Shown piece by piece: positions 6,790 through 47,477 of a DNA stretch of 56,767 nucleotides. Under the pieces are notes generated by a model. That model searched no databases. It was not told the DNA's origin and saw nothing but the letters and a program-made list of their open reading frames with translations. Position 1 is the stretch's first letter. The number at the start of each line of letters is the position of its first letter. The position numbers and the translations under genes are program-made. The DNA comes from an uncultured Eubacteriales bacterium (GTDB taxonomy: Bacteria > Bacillota > Clostridia > Christensenellales > Aristaeellaceae). The stretch is from the NCBI GenBank assembly GCA_902785105.1, contig CACZXF010000005.1, positions 1,121-57,887 of the forward strand, given 5' to 3'.

Positions 6790-8046
6790 TCATTTCAACA
6801 GGAACTGGTCAAATCCCGTTGTCTCCAGTATCTCCCGAACATCGTCACTGACGCCGGTCATATCAAAGCTGTCCTTGTTTTCCAGAGACTTGTACATCAT
6901 CAAAAGCACACGCAAACCGGCGGAGGACACATAGGCCATCCGGCTCACATCGACATGAATCGCCCTGATTCCTGTCCCTGCATTCTGGAACTGCTTCAAC
7001 AGTTCCGGCGCGGTGATCGTGTCCATGCGTCCCTGGATGGATACTTCAAAGACTCCATCCTTCACTTCGCTTACGACCCTGAAGGGAAGATTGATGTCAA
7101 CGGGAGCGGGCTTCGAAGTCACATTCTTCGCTACAGTGAGCTCCCAGAACTTCATTTTCCCGAATACATCCCGCACGGCAGGCTCCACTTCCGGATTGCC
7201 ATTGAGAGAAGCGATCTGGTCGGGCAGATAGTCGGCCATGCAGATCTCATGAAGCTCAAAGCCCATCTTCCGGATAAAGTCTCTGACCTTTCCGTCGTCG
7301 GGATCGAAAAATACGCTGTCATTGAATTTGACATCCGCCGTCGTGGCGGCGGCGCGGTTTGTCACCGCGGCGTACATGGCGGTCAACTGAGGATCGTTGT
7401 TCAGCGTAGCGGCGACTACCTCTTTATCATACAGGAAATAGGCCCTGTCGGCGATCACCCAGCTCCCGCCGTATTTCTGAAGGAGGCAGCGGATGTTGGA
7501 AAACACCTTCTCCAGCTCGGACTGGACAAAGTACATCAGCAACCCTTCCGTGGTCACCAGAAGGTTGCGACTATCCTCGGTAAAGGCATTCTCCAGGGAC
7601 TCGTAATTCGTGGCGTCCACAGCATGATAGGTCACCGCTTTGTTTTTTCCGATAATTGATTCCACCGCGGGCCCCATAGCATCTATGACAGCGGGAAGGT
7701 CTAATCCAAAGTAAGTTCTCCCCTGGCGGGACAATCGTATGCCGCGGGAGGTATACCCGCAGGGCAGGTCTGCGATCTGGCGTTCTTCCATGCGTTCGAT
7801 CAGTCGGTTCATGGTCTGGAACCGCGTCTCGATGATGATCGTATATGCAGGAAAGAGCTTTCTGACCTGCTCGAGCATCTCCTTGGGTATAGGCTTATTC
7901 GACATCTGCGCGCCGAAGGGCGGAAAGCCCAGGGCGTCGAGAAGGCGCTGTGCGTCTTTGTCTCCCGAAGCAGCACTGAGCTGGACACAGGATTTGGCCG
8001 TGTTGAACACAGGATTGACAAGTTCCCTCAAATCTTGATTATTCAT
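6790..8046 (-). CDS. LCM-type SAM methyltransferase fused to a STAS domain
   Basis: A 418-residue two-domain protein. The first about 305 residues resemble leucine-carboxyl-methyltransferase/TcmP-type SAM methyltransferases (PF04072 group): there is the family phrase TEGLLMYF and a Rossmann-like GLDLPAVIDAM segment. Residues about 325-418 are a STAS domain like anti-sigma-factor antagonists, with DVSRMAYVSSAGLRVL; Ser374 or Ser375 sits where SpoIIAA/RsbV proteins are phosphorylated. The substrate of the methyltransferase is unknown. I chose ATG 8046 because GGAGGG lies 6-7 nt upstream, inside the longer TTG-start frame. It stands alone among decayed sequence. An RsbW-like domain occurs in this window only in the MATE fusion at 44132-45874; a link between the two is speculation. 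Confidence 0.75.
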   Translation of the reverse strand: MNNQDLRELVNPVFNTAKSCVQLSAASGDKDAQRLLDALGFPPFGAQMSNKPIPKEMLEQVRKLFPAYTIIIETRFQTMNRLIERMEERQIADLPCGYTSRGIRLSRQGRTYFGLDLPAVIDAMGPAVESIIGKNKAVTYHAVDATNYESLENAFTEDSRNLLVTTEGLLMYFVQSELEKVFSNIRCLLQKYGGSWVIADRAYFLYDKEVVAATLNNDPQLTAMYAAVTNRAAATTADVKFNDSVFFDPDDGKVRDFIRKMGFELHEICMADYLPDQIASLNGNPEVEPAVRDVFGKMKFWELTVAKNVTSKPAPVDINLPFRVVSEVKDGVFEVSIQGRMDTITAPELLKQFQNAGTGIRAIHVDVSRMAYVSSAGLRVLLMMYKSLENKDSFDMTGVSDDVREILETTGFDQFLLK

Positions 8047-8802
8047 AAAAAAACCCTCCAATATTCAGTCCATCACTTTCTGAATTATGCTGCTCTACAA
8101 GAATGTTGTATTCCTTGAATCCTTCACAGGCCCTTTAATCTTCTCCACGTCAACAGCAATGATTCGGTACAAACCCTTGCTCCATGATTTCACCTGCAAG
8201 AGTCCCCCTTCGATATGCGATTTCCCCATTCACTATTTTACCATAGCATCTGTGGCACTGTCCAGATATCATATATCCCAAAATGGAGATGACTTGGGCG
8301 ATACAGCATCGCCGATCACATCAATGCTCGGTATCGGTATCAATAATAGAAATCCATCGTCTTTTCAGAAAGCATGTGGTTGTCGCTTTTGACCACCGCT
8401 GGTTACATCAGCAGGCAGGGCAATATACGCGCGCAAAAGCTCTTTTTCATAGGTTCCTTTCATGCCATTGAGCGTCAATTGATCCCTTAATCTGCTTTAG
8501 ATTGAGTCCATGTATAGTAAGGCCAGACCTGCTACATCTTCATTCTATAAGCTCAGGCTTTTAAAATGGTAGGTTTTTTGACTGGCTGTCAAACATACCG
8601 AATATAATGTAGTAGTCCCTTATAAACAGGAATTTGCAGGGGTGACGAACCTCTCAGTCAGCCTGCGGCAGACAGCTCCCTTTAAAAGGGAGGCCAAGGC
8701 TGCCGCCTGCAAACTAAACCTTGCCCCGGAAAACCGCAAATAAACAACAGTGATTATTAATCAAAAATAATAAAGGCGGCGCGGTCAGTAACATATTTTC
8801 GC
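8047..8802. other. Gene-poor stretch with a repeat
   Basis: No convincing gene is visible in these 756 nt. A minus-strand frame beginning near 8463 (MKGTYEKELLRAYIALPADV) lasts only 32 codons and I cannot place it; with its frameshifted surroundings it may be another decayed gene. The plus-strand frame at 8087-8392 lacks a ribosome site. Near 8620-8642 is a copy of repeat end A (ATAAACAGGAATTTGCAGGG), followed to about 8705 by a CTCAGTCAGCC...AAAAGGGAGGCCAAGG element of a type common between clostridial genes. Confidence 0.5.
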
Positions 8803-44131: not shown

Positions 44132-45874
44132 TTAAATGTCACCCTTGACCACCATCAGGTTGTTCAAATTCATGGAATAGGTGTATCGCACCTCGTCCGC
44201 CATGGAGAGCACGATGCGTATGCCCATGCCAGCCTCCTGGCCCTCGGCGGGGACGTAGTGGACGGGGTCGAAGGCGCCGCAGTCGTCCCGAAAGCGGAGC
44301 GTCCAGCGGCCATCCTTGTGCTGCAGGCGCATAGACAGATGATTATCCGCCTGTGGGTCAAAGCCATGGGTGACGATATTGGAGCCCATCTCCTCCACGA
44401 ACAGCGCCACGCGCCAGCAGAGGCCGCTGCTCCCGCCGTGGGTGCGGCAAAACGCCTCCGCGGCGTGGGAGGTGGCCATGACATCGCCCATATGGCTGAT
44501 ATCCGCCTCCAGCAGATCCTCCCTGGGCACGCCGAAGCCGTCGGGCAGCAACAGCACGTCCTCGGTTTTGATGGTCAACCGGCGATATTTAATACAGACA
44601 TAGCCAAGGATGCCGATCAGCGTCAGCAGCTCACCCGCAAAGAAGAAGAACCACGCGCCGGTGATACCCATGAACCGGGACAGCACAAACGCGGACAGCA
44701 GGGGCAATCCCGCGCCCTCCAGCAAGGAGATGACCTCCGTGGCGCGGACTCTTCCGACACCCTGATAGCTGCTCTTCAGGGCGTTGTTGATGCAGCAGGG
44801 CAGCAGGCCCAGAGCGAACAGCCGCACGCCGAATATGGCCATGTGCTGGCTCTCCCCCGCCTCCGGAATGAAAAGGCCCACGAGGAAGGGCGCGAAGCCA
44901 ATGAGCAGTGCCCCCGCCGCAAGACCCAGCGCGACAGCCCGCCGCACCAGCAGGCCCAGCAGCACCTTGAGGCCGGTCTGGTCCTCCTCGTTGAAGAGTA
45001 TGCCGGAGAGGGTCAGCGCCACGCCGCCGGTGCCGGTGCTGATGCAGTTGCTGGCGTTGCCGAGGGTCATGACCACGGTATACGCCGCCACCGCCACCGC
45101 GCCGCCCACGGACAGCAGCAGCTTGTTCATGCAGAAAATCAGTATGACCGAGGATACCATGTTGAAGGCCGCGGGCACGCCGCCCGTAAACAGCTCCCCG
45201 ATCTTTTTCCGGCTCACGCGCTTTGTGGAGAACTTGAACACGCTGCGCTTCGACAGGAAATAGAACGCGCCCATCACCATCGCCACATAATAGCTCAGCG
45301 ACGAGGCCAGCCCCATGCCGAACATGCCGCCGTGTAACACGGTGACGTTGAGTATGTCCAGCCCGATGTCCGTGACGGTCATCCCCAGCACGGCGGCGAT
45401 GAGCAGCCCGCTCTTTCCCGCCATCTGCATGAAGGGCACCAGTATCAGCGCCCCCATGGACGCCGGCGCGCCGATGATGAAACCGGCCAGATAGTCCCGG
45501 GTATCCTTCAAAAGGATTTCGTCGCCCTCCGCGCCCATCGCCTTGGCCAGCGGCGTCCGGAAGAGCAGCACCAGCGCCATGAAGGACAGGGAGACGACCG
45601 CCGTGATGGCGATGGCGGAGGAATAGCCCGCGTTGGTCTCCTCCTGGGAGCCGCGCCCCAGTGAACGGCTGCAAACCACCTGCACCCCCGCCGCCAGCAT
45701 ACTGCCGATCGCGCCGATGATCAGCAGCACCGGGTTCGCCAGACCGTAGGCCGCGATGGCCTTGACGCCGAGATACCGGCCGATCATGATGTTGTCGATC
45801 AGCAGACACACCGAAACCGTCAGGGCGGAGAGGATCTGCGCCGCCAGCATCTGACGCACGAGCTTGCGTATCAT
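44132..45874 (-). CDS. MATE exporter fused to an RsbW-like HATPase domain
   Basis: A 580-residue fusion. Residues about 1-435 are a MATE-family transporter with twelve hydrophobic segments (LVRQMLAAQILSALTVSVCL, DNIMIGRYLGVKAIAAYGLA). After a short linker, residues about 455-580 form a GHKL ATPase like the anti-sigma kinases RsbW/SpoIIAB: N-box FVEEMGSNIVTHGF with Asn499, G1-like RDDCGAFDP (529-537) and G2-like GMGIRIVLSMAD (about 549-560). So a drug/metabolite exporter carries a cytoplasmic domain that normally phosphorylates a STAS partner or binds a sigma factor. The upstream GAAGGAG is about 11 nt from the ATG at 45874; a longer GTG start at 45916 overlaps that site. It diverges from a second MATE gene. 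Confidence 0.88.
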   Translation of the reverse strand: MIRKLVRQMLAAQILSALTVSVCLLIDNIMIGRYLGVKAIAAYGLANPVLLIIGAIGSMLAAGVQVVCSRSLGRGSQEETNAGYSSAIAITAVVSLSFMALVLLFRTPLAKAMGAEGDEILLKDTRDYLAGFIIGAPASMGALILVPFMQMAGKSGLLIAAVLGMTVTDIGLDILNVTVLHGGMFGMGLASSLSYYVAMVMGAFYFLSKRSVFKFSTKRVSRKKIGELFTGGVPAAFNMVSSVILIFCMNKLLLSVGGAVAVAAYTVVMTLGNASNCISTGTGGVALTLSGILFNEEDQTGLKVLLGLLVRRAVALGLAAGALLIGFAPFLVGLFIPEAGESQHMAIFGVRLFALGLLPCCINNALKSSYQGVGRVRATEVISLLEGAGLPLLSAFVLSRFMGITGAWFFFFAGELLTLIGILGYVCIKYRRLTIKTEDVLLLPDGFGVPREDLLEADISHMGDVMATSHAAEAFCRTHGGSSGLCWRVALFVEEMGSNIVTHGFDPQADNHLSMRLQHKDGRWTLRFRDDCGAFDPVHYVPAEGQEAGMGIRIVLSMADEVRYTYSMNLNNLMVVKGDI

Positions 45875-45937
45875 GGGCAGAGGTACTCCTTCGTCGCTTT
45901 TACTTCTACAAATCACGGAGGATTATCCTCCTCTATT

Positions 45938-45967
45938 ATTGTAACCTGTTTACCACACTTTTGTCAA
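45938..45967 (-). promoter_or_regulatory. Promoter of the MATE-HATPase gene
   Basis: On the minus strand TTGACA (45967-45962), 18 nt and TACAAT (45943-45938), about 65 nt before the start. The divergent MATE gene starts within 180 nt, so a shared regulator could act here. Confidence 0.75.
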
Positions 45968-46109
45968 CCTTTTTAATGATGAAACATAACCTTCCGCCGG
46001 GTTCGATTTAACTGAATCGGGCTTTCTTTCCCGGCAAATCGGGATAAAATATATGATTCAGAAAGGCAAAATCAAAGATGCGCTTGCGTCTTTGGGAGGA
46101 CAAAAATAT

Positions 46110-47477
46110 ATGGTCAGGGACATGACACACGGTACCCCGCTCAAACTGATCTTTTCCTTTTGGTTTCCGCTGCTGCTGGGCAATCTCTTCCAGCAGGTCT
46201 ACAACGTGGCCGACAGCGTGATCGTCGGGCGGTTCGTGGGAGTAAAGGCCTTCGCGGGCGTCAGCGCCACGGCCTCTTTAAACTTCATGATCATCGGCCT
46301 GCTGCTGGGCATGTGCTCGGGCTGCGCCATACCGGTAGCACAGGCTTTTGGTGAAAACAACCCTAAAAAGATGCGGCGGTACTTCGCCAACGCCATCTAC
46401 CTCTGTGGCGGTCTGGCGCTGGTGATGTCTATCGCAACGGCGCTGCTGGCCCGGCCCATACTGCGCTGGATCGGCACGCCGGAGGACATCATGGCGGAGG
46501 CCTATCATTACATCGTCTACATCTTCGCCGGTATGCTGGCGACGATGCTCTACAACCTGGGCAGCGGCGTGCTCCGCGCCGTGGGCAACACCCGGACACC
46601 CCTGTTTTTCCTGGTGATGTCCTGCGTCGTCAATGTCGCGCTGGACCTGCTGTTTGTGGTAGGGCTTCACATGGGGGTCACCGGCGCGGCGGTGGCAACG
46701 GTCACGGCCCAGCTCCTTTCGGGCATACTCTGCATGTGGGTGATCTTCAGCCGCTACGACGTGCTGCGCATCCGGGGCGACGAGTGGAAGCCCGACACCG
46801 GATACATCCACAGACTGGCCGGCATGGGTTTGCCCATGGGGCTTCAGTTCTCCATCACCGCTATCGGGTCGCTGATCCTGCAGACGGCGGTCAATGGCCT
46901 GGGTTCCGATGCCGTGGCGGCCATCGGCGCGGGCGGCAAGGTGTACACCCTGTTCTGCTGCCCTTTCGAGGCCATCGGCGCGACCATGGCCACCTGGTGC
47001 GGGCAGAACCTCGGCGCGAAGCGGCTGGACCGCGTGCGCGAGGGCGTGCGGGTGGCGCTGGTGGTCATGACCATCTACGCGCTGCTGGCCAACATCGCGG
47101 CACGGTTCGCGGGCGAGCCGCTGGTGCGGCTGTTCATCACCGACGGCAGCGATGGCATCATACTGAACGCCGTCAAGCACCTGCGGATGGCCGTGAATTT
47201 CTTTATCCCGCTGCTGTCCATATTCATCTTCCGCAATTCCCTGCAGGGACTGGGCTTCTCCCGCATCGCCATGTTCGCAGGGCTGTTTGAGCTGGTAGGG
47301 CGCGCTTTTGTGGCCTTCGTGCTGGTACAGCGCATGGGCTTCGACGGGGCCATACTCGCCCACCCCGCCGCTTGGCTGATGGCAAACGTGCTGCTCATCC
47401 CCGCCTATTTCGCCGCCCTGCGGCGTCTGGAGCATCGCCCGGAATACAGCCTCGCCCGCACCGCGATACGGACATAA
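46110..47477 (+). CDS. MATE family efflux transporter
   Basis: A 455-residue multidrug/toxin exporter with twelve membrane helices: PLLLGNLFQQVYNVADSVIV, GRFVGVKAFAGVSATASL, LGSGVLRAVGNTRTPLFF and IVPLGLQFS-type GLPMGLQFSITAIGSLILQ are the usual landmarks. It is a complete, single-domain protein, unlike its divergent fused neighbour. I start it at ATG 46110 (MVRDMTHGTPLKL, the normal MATE N-terminus) because GGGAGG lies 10 nt upstream; an upstream ATG at 46053 adds 19 residues but has no ribosome site. Its substrate is unknown. Confidence 0.93.
   Translation: MVRDMTHGTPLKLIFSFWFPLLLGNLFQQVYNVADSVIVGRFVGVKAFAGVSATASLNFMIIGLLLGMCSGCAIPVAQAFGENNPKKMRRYFANAIYLCGGLALVMSIATALLARPILRWIGTPEDIMAEAYHYIVYIFAGMLATMLYNLGSGVLRAVGNTRTPLFFLVMSCVVNVALDLLFVVGLHMGVTGAAVATVTAQLLSGILCMWVIFSRYDVLRIRGDEWKPDTGYIHRLAGMGLPMGLQFSITAIGSLILQTAVNGLGSDAVAAIGAGGKVYTLFCCPFEAIGATMATWCGQNLGAKRLDRVREGVRVALVVMTIYALLANIAARFAGEPLVRLFITDGSDGIILNAVKHLRMAVNFFIPLLSIFIFRNSLQGLGFSRIAMFAGLFELVGRAFVAFVLVQRMGFDGAILAHPAAWLMANVLLIPAYFAALRRLEHRPEYSLARTAIRT

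Follow-up and report, generated by a model that had tools for sequence, protein, structure and literature searches.

The stretch of DNA analysed here (the window, 56,767 nucleotides from an uncultured Eubacteriales bacterium) encodes a MATE exporter with an RsbW-type ATPase domain fused to its C-terminal end, and this fusion is firm. The fused proteins form a single clade, and the genes beside many of them are those of partner switching, which encode STAS, SpoIIE and RsbW-type proteins. The switch domain probably controls the pump itself, and the reading that best accounts for the family, partner switching with the exporter in the seat of the sigma factor, is given about an even chance of being correct. 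Among the titles and abstract openings of the matches listed in the open PMC literature, no description of a MATE-RsbW fusion was found.

The fused gene and its two domains

The gene is a single open frame of 580 amino acids plus stop (Table 1). It starts with ATG at 45874, preceded by AAGGAG at 45891-45886; an alternative GTG at 45916 would give 594 amino acids, and the homologues agree with the ATG instead. The promoter listed in Table 1 is a consensus match only, one of three in the region against 1.4 expected. Pfam recognized MatE (82.7 bits, cut-off 24.9, E 3.1e-23) and HATPase_c_2 (49.2 bits, cut-off 27.4, E 6.5e-13, residues 465-572), as the first-pass annotation had anticipated in describing a MATE transporter and a GHKL domain within one uninterrupted frame. 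These were the only Pfam domains at E up to 1; no STAC, histidine-kinase dimerisation or SLC5 domain was found.

Eight relatives match the window protein over its full length with 56-62% identity, colinear and with neither stop nor frameshift between the domains, so an assembly join or frameshift artefact is ruled out. Chance similarity of the tail is also ruled out by the Pfam, profile-to-PDB and fold matches. Two of the ten loci returned by the search for relatives match just 71-103 residues (35-37% identity). The records of the eight near relatives carry the labels Clostridiales, Clostridia, Lachnospiraceae, Christensenella and, in one case, Synergistes; RUG names denote rumen genomes, and several of these relatives come from rumen or gut. 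The window protein matched no PADLOC anti-phage defence family at E 0.01, and a defence role was dropped.

Table 1. Features of the fused gene (positions in the window) and gene orders at related loci; MATE.HAT stands for the fused gene.
Feature	Position	Strand	Basis or remark
Whole gene, MATE exporter with RsbW-type HATPase_c_2	44132..45874	(-)	Frame, Pfam, relatives
MATE domain, about residues 14-430	44585..45835	(-)	Pfam MatE; model, Foldseek
TM1 aspartate D27	45794..45796	(-)	Asp in 38/46 fused, 41/41 unfused
E296-x-D298, fused-clade motif, TM8-TM9 loop	44981..44989	(-)	Putative ATPase-domain contact site
Linker and C-terminal RsbW/SpoIIAB-type ATPase domain, residues 433-580	44135..44578	(-)	Pfam; model, Foldseek
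N-box, residues 494-504	44363..44395	(-)	E494 and E495 in 47/47, N499 in 34/47 fused proteins
G1-like box D-D-C-x-x-F-D-P, residues 530-537	44264..44287	(-)	D530 in 40/47
G2-like box GMGI, residues 549-552	44219..44230	(-)	G551 in 43/47
Sigma-70-like promoter TTGACA-18-TACAAT	45938..45967	(-)	Just upstream of gene; 11/12 consensus matches
Contig C97, same genome	6.75 kb	one strand	MATE - MATE.HAT (tail decayed) - SpoIIE - STAS - STAS - RsbW-type - MATE fragment
L141 operon			STAS - MATE.HAT - SpoIIE, gaps about 24 bp
L070 operon			STAS - SpoIIE - MATE.HAT - STAS.APH.HATPase
L094 operon			NRPS - MATE.HAT - STAS - SpoIIE.HATPase
L097			STAS - GH3 - MATE.HAT - SpoIIE - HATPase
L148			STAS-Condensation - NRPS - MATE.HAT

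Judged by its sequence, the window protein is a divergent MATE. It scores 123.5 bits against the NCBIfam matE model TIGR00797, below the cut-off of 147.4, and the solved structure nearest to the model of its MATE part is PfMATE (3wbn_A, E 9.6e-14, TM 0.84 by target length). D27 lies at the usual cation-coupling position of MATE proteins; export by the window protein may be cation-coupled.

The model of the full protein (mean pLDDT 82.7; 51-68 over the last 50 residues) shows helices to about residue 430 and then an alpha/beta domain at the C-terminus. Modelled alone, the ATPase domain adopts the Bergerat fold (pLDDT 82.2), on which its RsbW/SpoIIAB-like assignment in the first-pass annotation had been staked. 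By Foldseek the nearest solved structures are RsbW (6m37) and SpoIIAB (1til/1l0o), with E about 8e-8, and the 19 best are all anti-sigma factors of the RsbW, SpoIIAB and UsfX types, some of them solved with STAS partners or a sigma factor. A profile of 31 fused tails retrieved six PDB sequences at E 0.01, ranked as the sensor kinase VraS (1e-4), RsbW (5e-4) and four SpoIIAB (2e-3 to 3e-3). The score against the anti-sigma F equivalog TIGR01925 was 12.3 bits, far from its cut-off of 135.

The three motifs that had been read from the letters alone were also found, with E495, N499, D530 and G551 all present. The N-box E495-x3-N499 lies within VEEMGSNIVTHG, the G1-like box reads D530-D-C532-x-x-F-D-P and the G2-like box G549-M-G551-I. 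Cys532 stands in the window protein where the canonical D-x-G of G1 has glycine, and this residue is Cys in 23 and Gly in 19 of the 47 fused proteins. E494, E495, Y564 and N571 are invariant in all 47, and E495, N499, D530 and G551 are kept together in 34, including the window protein and its eight near relatives.

One MATE clade and its spread

In a first tree, 38 fused and 41 unfused MATE parts fell on opposite sides of a branch supported at 100/98. A second tree, a quick search without bootstrap and with long branches, placed 46 fused proteins, five with seemingly decayed tails and three own-genome relatives on one side and 28 unfused MATEs on the other (SH-aLRT 98). Its unfused input comprised 14 of the earlier 41, the 12 nearest unfused MATEs (drawn from the 13 matches of normal length that scored best among those listed) and two more without a tail; a truncated fused gene, L082, was left out of both trees. 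A single clade fits these branches better than repeated independent fusions do. A single origin of the fusion is well supported within a sample found mainly with the clade's own tail profile, by which a MATE joined to a different HATPase was possibly missed. On the fused side the label 'fused' needs five changes, since decayed and tailless members are nested inside it. The fusion has the appearance of a single ancient subfamily of MATEs.

When the clade MATE profile was run on 391 genomes, the best 30 among the matches listed were all fused (349-554 bits), scores that are partly by construction since many of these genes had gone into the profile. They were followed by a decayed-tail MATE (326), the fused protein of L152 (322) and unfused MATEs from 316 down. 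The fused-side tails of L151 and L153-L157 gave no HATPase match and look decayed by eye. It was also observed that MATEs with HATPase-negative tails directly adjoin large NRPS genes at L155, L156, L157 and L158.

The fused proteins share with the MATE exporters PfMATE, DinF and NorM the fold and the TM1 aspartate, and differ in lying on the other side of the tree from the 28 unfused MATEs, in the C-terminal ATPase domain and in a loop between TM8 and TM9 where E-x-D replaces GA-x4-R. E296 was found in 42 of 46 fused and two of 41 unfused proteins, D298 in 42 of 46 and one of 41, and both together in 38 of 46 against none of 41; among the 12 nearest unfused MATEs, D298 occurs in four, E296 in one and the pair in none. 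The residues of the usual loop, A296 and R301 (each in 35/41 unfused proteins), are both absent from the fused ones (0/46). Because the loop, which by MATE topology we take to face the cytosol, would share that side with the ATPase domain, the E-x-D loop is a candidate and possible site of contact between the two.

The fusion is patchy in its distribution within the sample. A tail profile (A2) matched 26 of the 391 genomes of the window's class at E 1e-8, in 32 places. One of these is the window and one a stand-alone protein; the remaining 30 are fused genes, one of them truncated, which add to the eight full-length relatives. The truncated gene (L082, 348 amino acids) was retained among the 38 loci discussed below. 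The patchiness follows from the absence of any match to the fused tail in the one same-family and 19 same-order genomes listed in the class sample. A wider tail profile, run on 398 genomes of the phylum, found seven fused loci in five genomes outside the class. Pfam was applied to four of the outside-class loci and found MatE in all four; HATPase_c_2 exceeded its cut-off in L143 and L148 but fell short of it in L141 and L149. Candidates L146, L147 and L150 were dropped as SpoIIE or SpoIIE-HATPase proteins without MATE, and L100 as a stand-alone HATPase.

Genes beside the fused relatives and in the window's genome

With profiles for STAS, SpoIIE and HATPase that were built in-house on the window's genome, 17 of 30 fused class loci were seen to carry a STAS, SpoIIE or RsbW-type gene against four of 40 hand-picked, non-random unfused-MATE controls (Fisher p 4.2e-5). 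With eight further fused loci the count became 24/38 against 4/40 (p 1.1e-6). Several fused loci share genera and are not independent; by genus the count is 15/18 against 2/14 (p 2e-4). The co-occurrence with STAS genes that the first-pass annotation had thought worth checking is therefore real for the family. A partner gene is directly adjacent, on the same strand and within 100 bp, in 13/38 fused and 0/40 control loci, and a partner or biosynthetic gene is directly adjacent on the same strand in 23/38 and 0/40; anywhere in the fetched stretch, either kind was found in 32/38 and 9/40. Fourteen of the 38 fused loci lack a partner gene over the stretch fetched. The controls were picked from the best 40-plus PF01554 places listed, and each of 24 of the same 25 genomes supplied one or two, no place being listed for G174. 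Places next to a fused gene were passed over, as was one that lay at the end of a contig. The control stretches measured 5.5-16.5 kb (mean 15.3) and the fused ones 10.0-16.5 kb (mean 14.9). Linkage of the family to partner-switch genes is firm.

NRPS, GH3 or APH-type domains were found in 18/38 fused and 5/40 control loci, those of the controls being single adenylation-type domains; this enrichment is post hoc, the profiles having been built from fused loci after such genes had been noticed, and by genus it is not significant (11/18 against 5/14, p 0.29). In many relatives the cargo would probably be a small metabolite that comes from these neighbouring enzymes. NRPSs with terminal reductase domains are of the type able to give peptide aldehydes. 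Genes for NRPSs that end in a reductase domain adjoin the fused gene at L088, L093, L094 and L152, the L094 enzyme having 2196 amino acids with two A domains, two C domains and the terminal reductase. These loci resemble gut NRPS clusters of the ruminopeptin type, ruminopeptin being described as a dipeptide aldehyde (PMC12327764); the window locus differs from such clusters in having no NRPS.

Other gene types also recurred. STAS-Condensation hybrids are encoded near the fused gene at L148 (1355-2944) and L149 (4752-6341), and a STAS-APH-HATPase hybrid (L070:8452-10038) and a STAS-APH hybrid (L077:6721-7926) adjoin it. Companion proteins of about 200 amino acids, which gave no Pfam match, are encoded beside a small STAS gene (L008:10557-11110, L070:4232-4813, L072:5950-6561, L098:2411-2992 and L163:3133-3804). 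Longer relatives of the companion (399 amino acids) also adjoin STAS genes at two of the control loci, L108 and L126.

At the window locus the genes around the fused one encode an alpha/beta hydrolase, a PhoB-type regulator and, in divergent orientation, an ordinary MATE, with no STAS, SpoIIE, RsbW-type or biosynthetic gene nearby; assignment of the window protein therefore rests on its relatives. The ordinary MATE (46053-47477, +) is unfused and groups with the unfused MATEs. The nearest STAS domain lies 36 kb off, at the C-terminus of a Leucine carboxyl methyltransferase-like protein (6790-8061, -; 23.3 bits, cut-off 22.3), and STAS places in frames of 431 amino acids were also found on contigs C9 and C20 of this genome. 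Among the eight near relatives, several on short contigs, a partner gene was present in the fetched DNA only at L001, where an intervening gene separates it from the fused one, and at L008.

The window's genome (3.44 Mb, 92% complete) holds 11 HATPase_c_2 places (eight above cut-off), eight STAS and 10 SpoIIE places. Contig C97 carries a distant second copy of the fused gene, the tail of which lacks Pfam HATPase_c_2 at E 0.1 and matches the clade profile at E 6e-7; the tree groups all three MATEs of this contig with the fused ones. Contig C62 encodes a companion-STAS pair like those beside the fused gene in L008, L070, L072 and L098, with the STAS protein 68% identical to that of L008 and 71% to that of L070, and the companion only 30-35% identical to those of all four loci. 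In a comparison of the eight own-genome STAS stretches with 10 STAS genes of fused loci, C62 was best for nine, and the L097 STAS scored one point higher with C97 (216 against 215). The cognate STAS protein of the window protein probably has its gene at an unlinked place in the genome, and the STAS gene of C62 is the proposed candidate.

Another class of transporter in the same genome also appears to carry an RsbW-type domain. On contig C3 (L162:2061-3152) an ABC-transporter ATPase (E 2.8e-37) carries a C-terminal HATPase_c_2-like stretch (25.7 bits, just below the cut-off of 27.4), with a STAS gene and two SpoIIE genes near.

Proposed switch control of the exporter and its alternatives

Partner switching is known mainly for freeing sigma factors. 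With the exporter in that seat, its C-terminal domain would bind a small STAS protein, which a membrane SpoIIE-type phosphatase would dephosphorylate on sensing its signal. The dephosphorylated STAS protein would then dock on the ATPase domain and change exporter activity, perhaps via the TM8-TM9 loop, until the fused domain, or a separate RsbW-type kinase where that domain is decayed, rephosphorylates it and resets the switch. The first-pass annotation had put forward two kinds of role, in which the domain gates transport through ATP binding or through phosphorylation of a partner, or else holds a sigma factor or an antagonist at the membrane. Of these the partner route gains from the gene linkage, and sigma tethering gains little: 68 Pfam-scanned proteins from the neighbourhoods and the window included one sigma factor, of the ECF type, at the edge of L141; a sigma look-alike frame at L142 was outside the scanned set. 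A sigma output is possible at L141, given that gene and a decayed ATPase domain in this neatest of three-gene operons.

The domain resembles RsbW, SpoIIAB and UsfX in its Bergerat fold, N-box and G1 and G2 positions, in having them as nearest solved structures and in the partner genes near many fused relatives. It differs from them in being fused to an exporter, in having a sigma gene near one locus only among the neighbours scanned, in the G1 cysteine of the window protein and of 23 of the 47 fused proteins, and in its decay in 13 of the 47. SulP/SLC26 transporters carry a C-terminal STAS domain. A partner-switch domain on the cytosolic end of a transporter is thus common to both, but there the STAS side is fused, whereas the fused exporter carries the kinase side.

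Decay, defined as loss of N499, D530 or G551, affects 13 of the 47 fused proteins, and STAS or SpoIIE genes are nearby at 10 of these 13 loci, compared with 14 of 25 loci that have flanking sequence and an intact domain. From these counts the fused domain seems able to do without kinase action while the linkage persists. The case for stand-alone kinases that share the work with decayed fused domains was considered and found weak: a stand-alone kinase is present at 6/13 decayed and 3/25 intact loci (p 0.04), or 6/10 and 3/14 of those with STAS or SpoIIE (p 0.09), and any second HATPase at 6/13 and 8/25 (p 0.49).

That the linkage outlives the nucleotide site fits an exporter that is the target of the switch better than one that is its sensor. 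An exporter acting as a transceptor, in which the MATE part senses its substrate and passes the signal through kinase activity on STAS to some other target (a sigma factor or an enzyme), is accordingly judged unlikely, though it is the alternative to be taken most seriously. Substrate binding is plausible with the MATE fold kept and the TM1 aspartate in 38/46, the nucleotide-binding residues of the window protein are intact, and the ECF-type sigma gene near L141 could be such a target. Transporter-kinase fusions do exist, as in the CbrA transceptor (SLC5-STAC-histidine kinase), in which, according to a preprint, an SLC5 transporter is joined to a histidine kinase (PMC13022988). CbrA and the fused exporter both combine a secondary transporter with a cytosolic GHKL-type ATPase; the fused exporter differs in having MATE rather than SLC5, an RsbW-type domain, and STAS and SpoIIE as linked genes. 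Against a sensing exporter, a dead kinase cannot signal by kinase activity, no separate output gene recurs among the neighbours scanned, and some of the linked SpoIIE proteins seem to be sensors in their own right, with HAMP matches in L085, L094 and L098 (one of the three above cut-off).

The STAS-tagged enzymes suggest another role, in which the fused domain would anchor such enzymes at the exporter, so that the product is made at the gate and the switch positions the enzymes instead of gating transport. A STAS-Condensation protein adjoins the fused gene in L149 and lies one gene off in L148, and STAS-APH(-HATPase) proteins are its direct neighbours in L070 and L077 and lie a little further off in L071 and L073. 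Yet the remaining linked NRPS and GH3 proteins have no STAS domain, and free STAS or SpoIIE genes are commoner than STAS-tagged enzymes; anchoring is judged improbable.

Slightly less probable still is that ATP or ADP binding opens and closes the exporter with no protein partner. The window gene and six of its eight near relatives do lack a partner gene in the fetched DNA, and N499, D530 and G551 are intact in the window protein and all eight of these relatives, but STAS/SpoIIE linkage is family-wide and the nucleotide-binding residues are lost in more than a quarter of the fused proteins. That the domain is a functionless evolutionary passenger, as the tails without HATPase match in some branches (L151, L153, L155, L157) might suggest, is very hard to believe with four residues invariant across deep divergence.

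Control of the pump by partner switching thus remains the preferred reading. A broader version, held tentatively and thought rather more probably wrong than right, is that switching in this clade controls, after translation and through a pump-docked STAS protein, the export of peptide aldehydes built by NRPSs and of further conjugated metabolites, with the pump of the window's genome answering to the unlinked STAS of C62. If true, an exporter subfamily with a built-in switch kinase domain, often encoded in operons with the phosphatase and the STAS protein or with enzymes that may supply the cargo, would mean that secretion is controlled directly at the protein level. How such bacteria regulate the release of NRPS products thereby becomes open to experiment, and the pairing of a MATE with an RsbW-type domain may serve as a handle for finding exporters of those products.
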